Assembly (NCBI RefSeq): GCF_013004105.1
Contig: NZ_CP053085.1
Location: 372,001-436,000, forward strand
Source of the DNA: Gemmatimonas groenlandica
GTDB taxonomy: Bacteria > Gemmatimonadota > Gemmatimonadetes > Gemmatimonadales > Gemmatimonadaceae
Length of the DNA stretch: 64,000 nucleotides
Reading direction: 5' to 3'
Every line of letters starts with the position of its first letter. Within the stretch, counting starts at the first letter, position 1. The position numbers and the translations under genes were made by a program. Below the pieces are notes generated by a model. The model made no database searches and was not told the DNA's origin. It was given only the letters and a program-made list of their open reading frames with translations. Positions 54,699 to 60,321 of the stretch are shown piece by piece.

Positions 54699-56165
54699 CT
54701 AGTTCTGCTTCAACAGCAGCGTCCGGTCGCCGGTGGCGACGGCGAGGGCGGCACGGGCGCCCGCCACTTTGGCTTCTACCGCCGCGAGCTTGACGGCTTC
54801 ATCGAGCACCAGGCGTTCACGCAGGTTCAGAATGAGCAACGTGCTTTCGCCATTCTCGTAGCGCACCTGCTCGGCATCGCGTAACAAGCCAGCGTTGCGA
54901 ACGTTCGCCGCCTGCCGCTGCCGCAGCCGCTCCAGATTGAAGATGTCGAAGATCGCGGCGCGCGCGTCGAATTCGACCTCGCGTCGTACGCGATCCCGCT
55001 CGAGCCGCTGAAATTCGAGACGCTGCCCCGCCGACGCGAAGCGACCGGTTTCCTTCAAGAAGAGCAGGGGCGACTTGATGCTGAGGCCGGCCTTGTAGTT
55101 GTTGTCCAGTCGCTCGCCGTCAAAGAACGACTGCTCGCTGTCGCTCGCCCCGAGTCCGGCCAGCTTCGCTTCGGCCAGCGGCAGGAGCGCCTGCGTGCTG
55201 AACAGGCGCTGGGCCTCGGCCTGCTTGATGCGCGCCTGCACCTTGAGCAGATCCGGATTCCGACGCGTGGCGACGTCGAGCAACTCCTCCAAGCGCGTGG
55301 AATCGATCCCCACGCGATCAATGCCGAGCAGCACGGGTTTCGCATCGGCGGGCAGTGGGGCCGGGCGGCCCGCGTCGTCCCAGAGATACGCCGTGACGTC
55401 GAGCGATGACAGGTAGAACGACGCTTCGGCCTCGAAGCGGGTGACCTCGCGGCGCTGCAATTCGAGGAGCGCTTCGATCGTGTCGATGGGGGCACTCTCG
55501 CCGTTTGCCACACGCCGTCGTACGGCCTGCAACCGGAACTCGGCCAACGCTTCGCCTTCCTGCGCGATCACGCGGCGGCGCCAGCTCTCATACCACGCGC
55601 CATAGTCCTTCGCGGCCGAAAAGAGCAGCTTGTTCACGATGGCGGTGCGATCAGCATCGCCGGCATCCCGCGCAGCGCGCGCCTGTTGCAGCGCGTTTCG
55701 GCGTTCGTCGGTGAGGATACGTTGGCCGAGCGGGATGGAAATACCCGCTTCGAACGTGCCGTTGGCCTCGGTGCGTCGGTCCGGGTTGAAGTACCGCCCC
55801 ATCGTACGATCGAAGGCGATCGTCACATCGGCTCCGATCGGCAGCGGGATCTTGAGCTCCGCGTCGAAGTAGTTGTAGTACTGCGTGCCACCGAACTTCT
55901 TCTGATCCCACGAGGCCGTCACCGTGGGGTCGAACGCGCCCCACGCGGTGCGCAGATCGGACCGCGCTTGATCGGCCACCAATCGAGCCTGCGCGGCCAC
56001 CGGATGGTTGGCGAGAATGCCGTCAACGAATGCCGGAAAGGTGAACGGCGTGCCGAGGGTATCGAGCTTGGCCGGTGCCGACTGCGCGGACATCGGACCC
56101 GAGAGCAAGATCGTACAGCAGAAACCGAGTGTGACGGCGAGCGTGCTGCGCACGGGGCCCGTCAC
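54699..56165 (-). CDS. TolC-family outer-membrane efflux protein
   Basis: 488 residues beginning with GTG at 56165 (GTGA overlap with the preceding stop). The signal peptide is LAVTLGFCCTILLSGPMSAQS. The body has long helices typical of TolC-like channel proteins (FVDGILANHPVAAQARLVADQARSDL, LQQARAARDAGDADRTAIVNKLLFSAAKDYGAWY, RIKQAEAQRLFSTQALLP) with two repeats and beta segments. It should form a trimeric channel through the outer membrane for the exporter encoded just upstream. The gene order ABC, HlyD-like, TolC-like is that of a type-I-like secretion system. Confidence 0.92.
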   Translation of the reverse strand: MTGPVRSTLAVTLGFCCTILLSGPMSAQSAPAKLDTLGTPFTFPAFVDGILANHPVAAQARLVADQARSDLRTAWGAFDPTVTASWDQKKFGGTQYYNYFDAELKIPLPIGADVTIAFDRTMGRYFNPDRRTEANGTFEAGISIPLGQRILTDERRNALQQARAARDAGDADRTAIVNKLLFSAAKDYGAWYESWRRRVIAQEGEALAEFRLQAVRRRVANGESAPIDTIEALLELQRREVTRFEAEASFYLSSLDVTAYLWDDAGRPAPLPADAKPVLLGIDRVGIDSTRLEELLDVATRRNPDLLKVQARIKQAEAQRLFSTQALLPLAEAKLAGLGASDSEQSFFDGERLDNNYKAGLSIKSPLLFLKETGRFASAGQRLEFQRLERDRVRREVEFDARAAIFDIFNLERLRQRQAANVRNAGLLRDAEQVRYENGESTLLILNLRERLVLDEAVKLAAVEAKVAGARAALAVATGDRTLLLKQN

Positions 56166-57523
56166 TTCTTGCCTACGCTTTTCGCATCGCTCTTACCCGT
56201 GCCTTTCCCGCCTGCGACCGCGTCCGCCGGCAGCGCTTCGTTCGGATTGATCGAGAGCGGGAAGCCGTTGAGCTGACGCCAGATTTCCCAGCCGACGGTC
56301 ACGTTGTCGAGCATCGCCCAACCTTGCACGCCTGTGCCGAGGCGCAGCTGCGCCGGCCACGGTTCGTCCCGAGTGGTATCAGGAACCAGCAGCACTCGGA
56401 ACTGTCCCGCGCGGTTCGGGAATTGGTCGATCACGGCAACCTGCGCGCCGAATGTGCCGGAGGCCACCTGTGGCCACCCCGAAATCTGCAGTGCGGGCCA
56501 CCCGTCGAAGAAGATGCGCACGTGTCGCCCCGGCTTGAGCAGCGCGATGTCCATCGGCTTGACGAACAGCTCAACGGCCTTGCTGGGGCGCGCCGGTTGA
56601 ATCGTGACGATCGGCTCGCCGGCTTTCACGATTTCGCCCTGTCCAGCCTTCGTGGCGCGTACCACGTAGCCATCCTGCGGCGCCTCGATGAGGTAGAAGC
56701 TGTTGCGAATGGTGAGCGAGCCGACCTTGTCCTTGAGCTTCGCCACTTCAGACCGGCCTTCGCTCACCTCGGCGAGCGTCGACGCGCGATCCGACCGTGC
56801 CTTCGAAATCTTCTCGCCGTACTCCGCCGGAATGCTCGAGAGATCCGTCTGCGCACTGAGCAGCATCTGTTGCTTTTCCACCAGCTTGGCGGACGCCGAC
56901 TGCGCGCGGATCTGAAACGCCTGCAACTCGTTCACCGAGACGAGACCGAGCGTATCGCGGAAGAGTCGCTCGCGGCGACGCAGCTGATCGCGCGCCACCG
57001 AGTCTTCCAGCACCGCTTGGCGGACTTCCGCACGATACTGTTCGATCTTGTTCGCGGTCTGCTGCAGCTTGAAGTCGCGCTGCGCGTCGAGCTGCGATAT
57101 CAGCGTGCTGAGGGCAGCCGCCTTGTTCTGCTTCTCGCCGATCGCGGATTCCTTCGCCGACTGCTGCTGCGATGTGAGCGGAAGGACGTTGGGGTTGAGA
57201 TATTCCTCCTTGATCTCGGAGATGCGGACGATGCTGTCGCCCTTGTTCACGTACTGGCCCTCCTGCACAAACCACTGCTCGATGCGGCCATCGATCCGCG
57301 TGGGCAGCTCCTGCGGACGGTCGGCGGGATCGAGAGCGGTGACCGTGCCTTCACCGCGCACACTCTGCTGCCAGGGCAGAAAGAGTACGAGGAACAGCGT
57401 GATGAGAATGCCCAGCAGCCAGCGTGATACGATGCGGCCGGTGTTCGCTTCGCCCAAGAGCGCCGTCGTCTCCAACGGCAGGTGTTTGAGTTCGCGTTCG
57501 ATATCGAGATCGGACAAGGCCAT
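56162..57523 (-). CDS. HlyD-like periplasmic adaptor
   Basis: 453 residues from the ATG at 57523; the longer upstream frame is a shadow of the ABC gene. One N-terminal membrane helix (WLLGILITLFLVLFLPW) anchors it in the inner membrane. A beta-barrel/lipoyl domain follows (VTALDPADRPQELPTRIDGRIEQWFVQEGQYVNKGDSIVRI), then a long coiled coil (about residues 125-290: ISQLDAQRDFKLQQTANKIEQYRAEVRQAV, LRRRERLFRDTLGLVSVNELQAFQIRAQSASAKLVEKQQM), then the second half of the barrel (FYLIEAPQDGYVVRATKAGQGEIVKAGEPI). It links the ABC exporter to the TolC-like channel. The start lies 5 bases after the ABC stop. Confidence 0.93.
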   Translation of the reverse strand: MALSDLDIERELKHLPLETTALLGEANTGRIVSRWLLGILITLFLVLFLPWQQSVRGEGTVTALDPADRPQELPTRIDGRIEQWFVQEGQYVNKGDSIVRISEIKEEYLNPNVLPLTSQQQSAKESAIGEKQNKAAALSTLISQLDAQRDFKLQQTANKIEQYRAEVRQAVLEDSVARDQLRRRERLFRDTLGLVSVNELQAFQIRAQSASAKLVEKQQMLLSAQTDLSSIPAEYGEKISKARSDRASTLAEVSEGRSEVAKLKDKVGSLTIRNSFYLIEAPQDGYVVRATKAGQGEIVKAGEPIVTIQPARPSKAVELFVKPMDIALLKPGRHVRIFFDGWPALQISGWPQVASGTFGAQVAVIDQFPNRAGQFRVLLVPDTTRDEPWPAQLRLGTGVQGWAMLDNVTVGWEIWRQLNGFPLSINPNEALPADAVAGGKGTGKSDAKSVGKK

Positions 57524-57528
57524 GGTGT

Positions 57529-59751
57529 CTAGGCTCCCGTGGTCATGGGCGTCTCGTGCAGCAGGTTGAGGCACATCGGGTCCATCCGGACGACGCTGAA
57601 CGGGCCTTCGCGCACGACCTGTCCGTCTTCGACCACGAGCACGCGATCGAACGCCTCGAGCAACTGCGGATCGTGCGACACTGTGATGACCGTCCACGGA
57701 CGGTTACGGTCGGTGAGCAGCTTGATGATGAGGGTGCGCGACGCGGCGTCGAGATTCTGGAAGAAATCGTCGAGCACGATCAGGCGAGGACGGCCCACCA
57801 TACCCTGCGCCACGAGCAACTTGCTCGCGAGATGCGCGGGCAGCGTACGCCCACCATTGGTGAGTTCGGTTTGAATGCCCTGCGGCAGCTGTTGGATCTC
57901 GTCGGTGAGCGCGAGGTCATCGAGGGCCTCGCGAACGTCACGCGGGGTGATGTGAGTGCGACCGACGCTGACATTCTCCTCCACCGTTCCGTCGAAGAGA
58001 TCCGTCCAGGAGAGCATTTGTCCGATGCGCGCGCGCAACGCCGGCCGATCGAGGTCGCGCAGCGTGACCCCGTCGAAGCGGATGGTGCCATCGTAGTCGT
58101 CGATGAGCCCACCGAGCAGCTTGAGCAGCGTCGACTGGCCAGACCCGTCCGAGCCCATGATGGCCACCCGTTCGCCGGGGGCAATCTGCACGGTGACCCC
58201 GTCCACCGAGGCGGAACGCGCCGAAGGGTATCGATAGCGGAGATCCTTGGTCACGATGGACACACCCACGCCCGGTGTATGGATCGGGGCGAGTCCGCCG
58301 CGGGCTTCGAGCGGGAGATCGGCGACGTGGCCCGACTTGTCCACGCTCGTGAGCACGTCGTACACGGTCGCGATGCTGTTGATGAGCTTCTCGACACCAG
58401 CGAGAACGGTCACGATGACCACTTCCGCGGCCACGAACTGGCCGAGCAGGAGTCGGTTCGACTGCACCAGCGTGGCCCCGATGATCAGGACGGCAGCCGT
58501 GATGAACGTCTTGAAGCCAATCAGTGCGATCGTCTGCTTGACGAGTATGGCGAAGTGTTTGCGCCGGTACTTGAGGTACCCAGTGACGACATCGTCCATA
58601 CGCTCCACCGGTAGCGTGGAGTCGCCGGCATACTTGAAGGCGTGGAAGGCGCGCGCGATTTCCTCGAGCCAGTGCACGGCCTTGTACTTGTACTTCGATT
58701 CGACGATCGAGGTCTCGAGTCCTTCAGGTCCCGACCAACGGATGATAAACCAGAGTGCCGCCGTGACGCCGATGGCGAACACGGAGAACCATGGACTGTA
58801 CACCGTGAGCAGCAAGAGGCTGAAGACGATCGTGAGCAACGCGGTCGGCACGTCGAGCAACAGTTTCTGCACGCCCTTCTGAATGGCGATGGCTTCGAAC
58901 AGACGGTTCATCTGCTCGGGGAGATTCTGCTCCAGCGACGCCGCGTAGCGCAGCCGCGGAATGCGAAAGGCGAACTCGAGTGCCATGCGGGCGAAGACGC
59001 GCTGTTGAATGCGCTCCACGACATTGAGAATGCCGATCTGCAGCACACCGGCGACGATTGTCCCCAACACGACGAAGGAGATCAGCACGATCACAGGCTG
59101 CAGATACAGGCGACCCTGGACGATCTGCACGATACCGCCTACGGCGAGCGGAAGAATCAGACTCAAGCCGCCGGACAGCGTCGCATAGAAGAACACCGTG
59201 AGAATCTCGCGACGCTCGCGGGCGAAGAGGGCGAGTGTGCGGTCGATCGGTGTGCGCGGCTCATGCTCGTCATTGCGGCCAGTTTCGCCCACGGGACTGT
59301 GTGGATAGGCGTTCGAGAGGGAGCTGTTGGCCGGCCGCAGGGCCATTGGCGCCAGTGCCGCCAGTGCATTCCCCGACCCCATCCGAGCGAACAGGGTTTC
59401 GGCGAGCGCATCCCCCTGTCCGTCGATGACCACCTCGCTCCCGTCGCGCGGAACGAGGAGCGCCTGCACCCGGTCATCGGCATCGCGACACATGACGATC
59501 GCATCGTCGTTGCGTAGGTCCAGCAGGACGATGGGAACCGTACGCTCCCCAATGGCCAGCTTCAGTGTGTCGAGGGAGATCTGGCGGTCGAGGTAGCCGA
59601 CATCGACCGCGCCGCCGATCGACCGCAGTCGGTTCGGCAGAGGATCGGTGGACAAGATCTGACGCGTGAGCGCGCGCCAGCGTGCCTGCTCGACATCAAG
59701 GCCGAGCGCGGCGGTTACGAGTTGGTTGACGCGAGTGGCCTGAGCCGACAT
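57529..59751 (-). CDS. ABC exporter with N-terminal C39-like-position domain and degenerate ATPase
   Basis: 740 residues. The first 150 residues sit where C39 peptidase-like domains sit in such exporters but lack an obvious catalytic Cys-His pair. Six-helix permease segments span about 180-460 (TLSGGLSLILPLAVGGIVQIV, ILISFVVLGTIVAGVLQIG). The nucleotide-binding domain is unusual: Walker A is GSDGSGQST (533-541) with Q539 in place of Lys, the ABC signature region reads LPAHLASKL rather than LSGGQ, and Walker B ends D661-D662 rather than Asp-Glu. The H-loop (VSHDP) is kept. Permease and adaptor look normal, so it may export with weak or borrowed ATPase activity. The substrate is unknown. Confidence 0.92.
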   Translation of the reverse strand: MSAQATRVNQLVTAALGLDVEQARWRALTRQILSTDPLPNRLRSIGGAVDVGYLDRQISLDTLKLAIGERTVPIVLLDLRNDDAIVMCRDADDRVQALLVPRDGSEVVIDGQGDALAETLFARMGSGNALAALAPMALRPANSSLSNAYPHSPVGETGRNDEHEPRTPIDRTLALFARERREILTVFFYATLSGGLSLILPLAVGGIVQIVQGRLYLQPVIVLISFVVLGTIVAGVLQIGILNVVERIQQRVFARMALEFAFRIPRLRYAASLEQNLPEQMNRLFEAIAIQKGVQKLLLDVPTALLTIVFSLLLLTVYSPWFSVFAIGVTAALWFIIRWSGPEGLETSIVESKYKYKAVHWLEEIARAFHAFKYAGDSTLPVERMDDVVTGYLKYRRKHFAILVKQTIALIGFKTFITAAVLIIGATLVQSNRLLLGQFVAAEVVIVTVLAGVEKLINSIATVYDVLTSVDKSGHVADLPLEARGGLAPIHTPGVGVSIVTKDLRYRYPSARSASVDGVTVQIAPGERVAIMGSDGSGQSTLLKLLGGLIDDYDGTIRFDGVTLRDLDRPALRARIGQMLSWTDLFDGTVEENVSVGRTHITPRDVREALDDLALTDEIQQLPQGIQTELTNGGRTLPAHLASKLLVAQGMVGRPRLIVLDDFFQNLDAASRTLIIKLLTDRNRPWTVITVSHDPQLLEAFDRVLVVEDGQVVREGPFSVVRMDPMCLNLLHETPMTTGA

Positions 59752-59868: not shown

Positions 59869-60321
59869 TCAGCGGTGGTGCGGCGGAGCCCGTGTCGGTG
59901 CTGCGCCCAGGCGGCCAACGCGACGGTGCACGTCGAAGTGTGCGACGGACGGTAGGCCGCGACTCCGAGCGTAGGCAGATCGGGCAATCAGGCCAGTCGT
60001 ACGCTCGACGCCAGAAATCTGCGACGACGCCGTGCGCTGCGTACGTCGGCCAGTGCTGCGCTGCCAGGCGGCGCGTGCTGTGGGAGCCAGCCGCGTCGAC
60101 GCGCGATCGATCGGCGCATCGTGGTTCATCGGCAGGACGCGTCGCACGGACTCGAAACGGAACGCACCGTCGCCTGCGATCCTGGCGGCGTGCAGCGCAC
60201 TCGGCAGCGCATTCGGCAGCGGCCGGTGTACCATCGACGTAGCGGCAAGCAACACGCACGCCATGGCCGCACAGGCCAAAGTGAGGTGAAAGAGCCAGCT
60301 GGGACGAGGCGCCTCGGTCAT
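59869..60321 (-). CDS. possible small membrane protein upstream of the exporter
   Basis: 150 residues. It opens with a membrane helix or uncleaved signal (LFHLTLACAAMACVLLAATSMV) and continues with a basic, low-complexity stretch (RRTQRTASSQ, RVGRLGAAPTRAP). The reading frame and codon pattern look less protein-like after residue 90, so its true extent is unclear. It would precede the exporter ABC gene by 118 bases on the same strand. The rest of the gap 59752-60504 shows no other coding signal. Confidence 0.35.
   Translation of the reverse strand: MTEAPRPSWLFHLTLACAAMACVLLAATSMVHRPLPNALPSALHAARIAGDGAFRFESVRRVLPMNHDAPIDRASTRLAPTARAAWQRSTGRRTQRTASSQISGVERTTGLIARSAYARSRGLPSVAHFDVHRRVGRLGAAPTRAPPHHR

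Follow-up and report, generated by a model that had tools for sequence, protein, structure and literature searches.

A HlyB-like tripartite exporter of Gemmatimonas groenlandica whose relatives carry a decayed, and in one clade absent, ATPase domain

What could power an exporter whose own ATPase subunit lacks the residues for ATP hydrolysis? This question arises from a three-gene operon on the minus strand of a 64,000-nucleotide stretch of the Gemmatimonas groenlandica chromosome (hereafter the window), which encodes an ATP-binding cassette (ABC) exporter-like subunit of 740 amino acids (P0001, window positions 57529-59751), a HlyD-like adaptor and a TolC/OEP-like channel. An ATP motor is the defining feature of ABC exporters; the family described here probably forms tripartite exporters that work independently of ATP hydrolysis by their own subunit, as judged from sequence comparisons, perhaps with an ion gradient as the driving force. 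The first-pass annotation of this DNA had presented the three genes as a tightly packed operon, which is borne out both by Pfam matches (PF13437 and PF02321) and by the coordinates—the ATG of the HlyD-like gene (57523) lies 5 bp past the ABC stop codon, and the TolC/OEP-like gene (56165-54699) shares a 4-bp overlap with the stop of the HlyD-like gene, which ends at 56162.

P0001 has the overall anatomy of an ABC exporter. It scores above the cut-off for ABC_membrane (PF00664, 31.4 bits), and its predicted structure, with a mean predicted local distance difference test score (pLDDT) of 85, could be superimposed on TmrAB across both the transmembrane domain (TMD) and the nucleotide-binding domain (NBD; 6rai_B, Z 28.8, root-mean-square deviation [rmsd] 2.9, 565 residues), and, along its entire length, on HlyB (8dck_A, Z 27.8, rmsd 6.3, 670 residues). 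The catalytic motifs of the NBD read as the first-pass annotation had reported: GSDGSGQST places Gln539 at the Walker A Lys position, LPAHLASKL occupies residues 637-645 where LSGGQ is expected, LIVLDD has Asp661 followed by Asp662 in Walker B, and the H-loop His693 is present. An additional loss, not listed by that annotation, affects the Q-loop Gln, replaced by Ser581; the A-loop Tyr508 is retained. The N-terminal domain had been described as sitting at the position of C39 peptidases without a catalytic Cys. Structure prediction of this domain alone (AlphaFold2, pLDDT 94) yielded a C39-like fold, with the C39-like domain (CLD) of HlyB as the best match (7sgr_A, Z 11.0, rmsd 3.3, 118 residues). 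The domain contains no His, and its sole Cys (Cys88) is off the catalytic position; it is therefore not a peptidase and is, judging from sequence and model, a C39-like domain that is catalytically inactive. The shorter Bacteroidota members, with lengths of about 555-590 amino acids, lack it altogether.

To place these losses in context, we surveyed the family at large. A sample of 249 genomes of the phylum yielded orthologues of P0001 in 25 members of its own family (to judge from the named relatives, Gemmatimonadaceae), among them 9 of the 10 genomes belonging to its own genus group g1, as well as one divergent copy outside that family. A scan of named genomes returned 520 relatives, and about half of the best 80 belong to Bacteroidota, mostly Cytophagales. 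Within Bacteroidota, 89 of 345 genomes carry a family member (396-1055 bits), nearly always as a single copy; other ABC proteins in the nine genomes checked reached at most ~180 bits, far below the family members. The statement in the first-pass annotation that degenerate relatives occur in Bacteroidota exporters proved correct.

We defined the hydrolysis set as the Walker A Lys, the signature Ser and Gly, the Walker B Asp and the catalytic Glu. This set is intact in none of the 164 NBDs sampled from the main family (0/64 in Gemmatimonadota and 0/100 in Bacteroidota), whereas all seven canonical controls keep it. The pattern of loss differs between the phyla. The missing Walker A Lys, conspicuous in P0001, recurs in 63 of 65 Gemmatimonadota members (2 keep it) and does not extend to Bacteroidota, where the Lys is conserved in 41 of 41; conversely, the Walker B Asp is kept in 64/65 Gemmatimonadota vs 6/41 Bacteroidota members, and the H-loop His in 60/65 vs 2/41. 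Both groups have largely lost the Q-loop Gln (present in 3/65 and 0/41, respectively), the second signature Gly (2/65 and 3/41) and the catalytic Glu (14/65 and 0/41), the latter being mostly substituted by Asp. The A-loop Tyr is present in all 64 Gemmatimonadota NBDs. Gln at the Walker A Lys position is shared by close relatives of P0001 (L010, L039-L044, L052 and L054), and others have Arg. That different residues were lost in each lineage is what one expects once an activity escapes selection, and the alignment shows that both ATP sites of a homodimer would be broken. A divergent, near-canonical group (n=11) stands apart: four of its members keep the hydrolysis set, and all are devoid of the Q-loop Gln at its usual place.

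Among divergent Bacteroidota, eight loci (L173, L174, L175, L181, L182, L183, L186 and L187) carry LSTGQ, Asp-Glu and the His in an operon of the same layout, again without the Q-loop Gln.

The most far-reaching observation concerns members that have no NBD at all. In four Bacteroidota genomes of the phylum sample, the family member ends right after the sixth transmembrane helix (TM6). A targeted search of two orders recovered this form at 58 places in the first (57 of 201 genomes) and at 16 in the second (15 of 148 genomes), with open frames of 333-374 amino acids in both cases; the NBD-less form is therefore present in 72 of the 349 genomes sampled over the two orders. These permeases match ABC_membrane (PF00664) with 35.6-43.2 bits, and in 45 of 45 loci the HlyD homology starts 25-99 bp past the end of the permease homology. 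Six-frame searches with hidden Markov models (HMMs) of the family and of canonical NBDs, in which the positive controls were detected, found no NBD near the permease in 49 NBD-less loci. The sole weak matches, of 10.6 and 7.6 bits with E values of 0.05 and 0.5, lie within an unrelated P-loop open reading frame (ORF) of L169, and a split gene with an NBD nearby was rejected, as the six-frame search came back empty even with lax filters. Among the matches listed, with some weak ones standing outside the list, the nearest ABC ATPase lies 36-243 kb away in the four NBD-less genomes checked.

In a tree of the membrane domain, the NBD-less members form a single clade (bootstrap/SH-aLRT 100/99), which sits inside the degenerate Cytophagales members (nodes 99-100) with a Runella protein as its sister (99/90). 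When distant canonical exporters served as outgroup, branches were very long and the placement of the near-canonical group was unsure, and the tree was rebuilt without them. Because the NBD-less clade is nested within degenerate members, decay of the NBD appears to have come first, followed by a single loss.

Two features of the NBD-less loci deserve mention in their own right. A small membrane-anchored protein (a frame of ~110-160 amino acids without any Pfam match) is encoded just 5' of the permease in 27 loci of one order, and could be a fourth subunit. In one genome (G337, L170:6763-10001), the NBD-less operon lies behind same-strand genes resembling a metal-efflux adaptor and an RND pump, and a metal-efflux adaptor-like gene also precedes the operon in L191 and in L188, the latter from the same genome; these neighbours are a possible hint to the substrate.

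Selection has acted on both domains. Within the Gemmatimonas group, the ratio of nonsynonymous to synonymous substitution rates (dN/dS) is 0.05-0.12 for the NBD and 0.02-0.04 for the membrane domain, and the NBD-less permeases have values of 0.03-0.04 where dS is measurable, a sign of strong purifying selection. Purifying selection on the NBD implies a structural or regulatory role for the pseudo-NBD. In distant comparisons, P0001 and its Bacteroidota homologues are 45% identical in the TMD and 36.5% in the NBD—the reverse of divergent canonical exporters, with ~22% in the TMD and 47-57% in the NBD. A further residue of interest is Glu443, which lies where TM6 is most hydrophobic; four canonical exporters carry Thr or Leu at this position. 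In the fifth helix (TM5), a basic residue at position 414 is conserved too. From its position and conservation, Glu443 is a candidate site for ion coupling or substrate binding.

On this basis, we propose that the operon encodes a HlyB-like tripartite exporter—an inner-membrane ABC-type permease joined to a HlyD-like adaptor and a TolC-like channel—in which the ATPase domain has turned into a pseudo-NBD and transport would have been freed from ATP hydrolysis by the permease subunit itself. Where still present, the pseudo-NBD probably serves as a folded scaffold or gate on the cytoplasmic side, and it may continue to bind nucleotide, as the retained A-loop Tyr suggests. With less certainty, the permease dimer could cycle through ion-gradient coupling, with Glu443 and the basic residue 414 as the candidate coupling site; alternatively, the substrate might follow its own gradient into the conduit formed by adaptor and channel. 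Tentatively, and with some doubt, the family could be viewed as a natural class of tripartite exporters with secondary-active (i.e., ion-gradient-driven) transport, derived from ABC exporters via stepwise decay of the ATPase domain, followed by its complete deletion.

Several observations weigh against this proposal. A distant subset (L173-L175 and L186) retains most ATPase motifs. The purifying selection on the Gemmatimonadota NBD, together with the conserved A-loop Tyr, indicates that nucleotide binding may matter. A close pair of canonical controls shows no clear difference between TMD and NBD (dN 0.021 vs 0.025), so the contrast in domain conservation holds for distant comparisons only. 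Coupling helix 1 (NRFF..IQK; residues 277-298, window 58858-58923) is highly conserved in NBD-less members, where the domain on which it usually docks is gone; this would be compatible with some other partner in the cytosol, or indeed with an NBD acting in trans. Finally, Glu443 is also present in near-canonical relatives and hence did not arise together with the decay of the NBD.

The first-pass annotation had offered three ways out of the puzzle posed by P0001, i.e., weak hydrolysis, pairing with a normal ATPase, or motion powered differently, and the last of these is now best supported because one clade dropped the NBD entirely. It could take a form without any energy input, in which the permease is a mere anchor or a gated passive conduit for HlyD-TolC, and substrates go down their gradient or load from the periplasm. 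This sub-case of ATP independence, which would fit an operon left with no energy supplier once the NBD is gone, strikes us as rather unlikely though well worth keeping in view: strong conservation over the whole permease, charged residues in the membrane included, and its low dN/dS both suggest a worked mechanism and not a mere anchor.

An ATP-driven process could also be preserved in trans, if the permease formed a heterodimer with, or borrowed, a canonical ABC ATPase encoded elsewhere. In its favour, there are 62 ABC ATPase family matches in the G. groenlandica genome and 46-58 in each of the four NBD-less genomes checked, and coupling helix 1 is conserved in NBD-less members. We nevertheless consider this option unlikely. 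Since the Walker A and B residues and the signature are all damaged in a single chain, pairing with a normal half would not yield a complete ATP site. The first-pass annotation had suggested looking for a second ABC half; just 1 of 80 loci has another ABC-like frame, and a partner gene within the operon was rejected, as no ABC gene adjoins in 79 of 80 NBD-bearing loci or in the 49 NBD-less loci. Only G848 and G911 combine an NBD-less with an NBD-bearing member of the family. Moreover, the Arg, Phe and Gly of the NBD-docking coupling helix 2, near-invariant elsewhere in the family, are lost in NBD-less members while the remaining permease is conserved, which argues against an NBD in trans.

Slow ATP hydrolysis through a non-canonical site, with the NBD-less clade as a separate, repurposed or non-transporting derivative, appears improbable. 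The weak activity anticipated by the first-pass annotation is compatible with the sequences of NBD-bearing members, given the purifying selection on their NBDs, the invariant A-loop Tyr of Gemmatimonadota and the Walker A Lys conserved in Bacteroidota, yet it is inapplicable to the clade without NBD. It also has to accommodate the joint loss of signature, Q-loop and catalytic Glu, on top of a lineage-specific loss of either the Lys or the Asp and His, and an NBD-less clade that is nested among degenerate members with its operon unchanged. Frameshifts, misassembly or decaying pseudogenes, for which a few match stretches with a stop codon (e.g., L083 and L088) might be invoked, were rejected as a practically negligible explanation, since the motifs recur in many independent genomes, the short open frames are consistent in dozens of them and dN/dS is low.

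Comparison with known systems underscores the unusual position of the family. P0001 shares with HlyB (of HlyB-HlyD-TolC) the domain order of C39-like domain, TMD and NBD, the three-gene logic and, as indicated above, the full-length fold and the closest match for its N-terminal domain; unlike HlyB, it has lost the catalytic residues of the NBD, and one clade of its relatives misses the domain itself. It combines traits of type I secretion—a C39-like domain, with HlyD and TolC in the operon—with scores well below the NCBIfam cut-offs for the curated subfamilies (TIGR01846 HlyB, 149 vs 726 bits; TIGR03375 LssB, 185 vs 693 bits), and has the six-helix TMD of the ABC exporter superfamily (type IV fold) without an intact NBD. 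Degenerate ATP-site residues within an intact exporter fold are also known from the heterodimers TmrAB, TM287/288, BmrCD and TAP. Such exporters are asymmetric, with a complementary half and one working site kept (PMC7756269); in P0001, by contrast, Walker motifs and signature are broken on one and the same chain, and no gene for a complementary half adjoins. The NBD-less members, for their part, resemble the membrane domains of MsbA and LmrA, i.e., ABC exporter permeases without an NBD. In these truncated proteins, ethidium transport is coupled to protons, with an efficiency below that of full-length MsbA (PMC4979069, PMC6155054). Unlike those laboratory truncations, the deletion reported here arose in nature, has become fixed in a large clade and is found within a tripartite operon. 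The literature searched, with most subscription journals outside its reach, contained no account of a natural exporter that lacks its NBD or is fully degenerate. Anatomically, the system is a tripartite exporter of the HlyB type, but it does not fit ABC exporters as defined by catalysis.

Whether the membrane domain of an ABC exporter can work with ion coupling is a question that has so far rested on engineered LmrA and MsbA truncations. Nature appears to have arrived at this truncation as well, and near-canonical, degenerate and absent stages of the NBD occur within a single family that shares one operon layout, which makes the question directly testable with natural proteins. Labels that automatic annotation gives to these genes, such as ATP-driven transporter or type I secretion ATPase, are likely to be wrong. 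The features discussed are compiled in Table 1.

Table 1. Coordinates of the operon genes, of the domains and residues of P0001, and of the small frames next to NBD-less permeases (window positions unless a locus is given).
Feature	Position	Strand	Basis
ABC exporter-like subunit (C39-like N-terminal domain, six-helix TMD, degenerate NBD; 740 amino acids)	57529..59751	-	
HlyD-like periplasmic adaptor	56162..57523	-	Pfam PF13437
TolC-like outer-membrane factor (OEP)	54699..56165	-	Pfam PF02321
N-terminal C39-like domain, residues 1-140, without catalytic Cys or His	59332..59751	-	AlphaFold2 and fold comparison
TMD, residues 165-478, most conserved part of the family	58318..59259	-	
Degenerate NBD, residues 490-720	57592..58284	-	
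Walker A GSDGSGQST, residues 533-541, Gln539 replacing Lys	58129..58155	-	
Ser581 replacing the Q-loop Gln (RIGQMLSWTDLF)	58009..58011	-	
LPAHLASKL, residues 637-645, replacing the LSGGQ signature	57817..57843	-	
Walker B LIVLDD, Asp661 kept, Asp662 replacing the catalytic Glu	57766..57783	-	
H-loop His693, retained in Gemmatimonadota and mostly replaced by Asn in Bacteroidota	57673..57675	-	
Glu443, acidic, in the hydrophobic core of TM6, near-invariant in the family including NBD-less members	58423..58425	-	
Small membrane-anchored protein frame	L170:6253-6603	-	
Small membrane-anchored protein frame	L171:4493-4867	+	

The genomic surroundings add a few details. No substrate or cargo gene was recognised beside the ABC gene in 80 loci, and no RTX gene either; the recurring recognised neighbours there are HlyD, TolC and a TetR regulator, often found upstream of the operon in Bacteroidota. 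In the window, an ORF just 5' of the ABC gene (59869-60321, minus strand) lies outside the conserved operon, with ~40-50% identical counterparts in only six of the closest relatives. Contigs labelled Candidatus Kuenenia and Thalassobius (L060 and L075) carry clearly Gemmatimonadota-like and Cytophagales-like copies, respectively, and are probably mis-binned contigs of metagenome-assembled genomes. Finally, large plasmids of some Bacteroidota (Persicobacter, Aureibacter and Riemerella; H1-H7) also harbour family members, some of them annotated as ATP-binding proteins.

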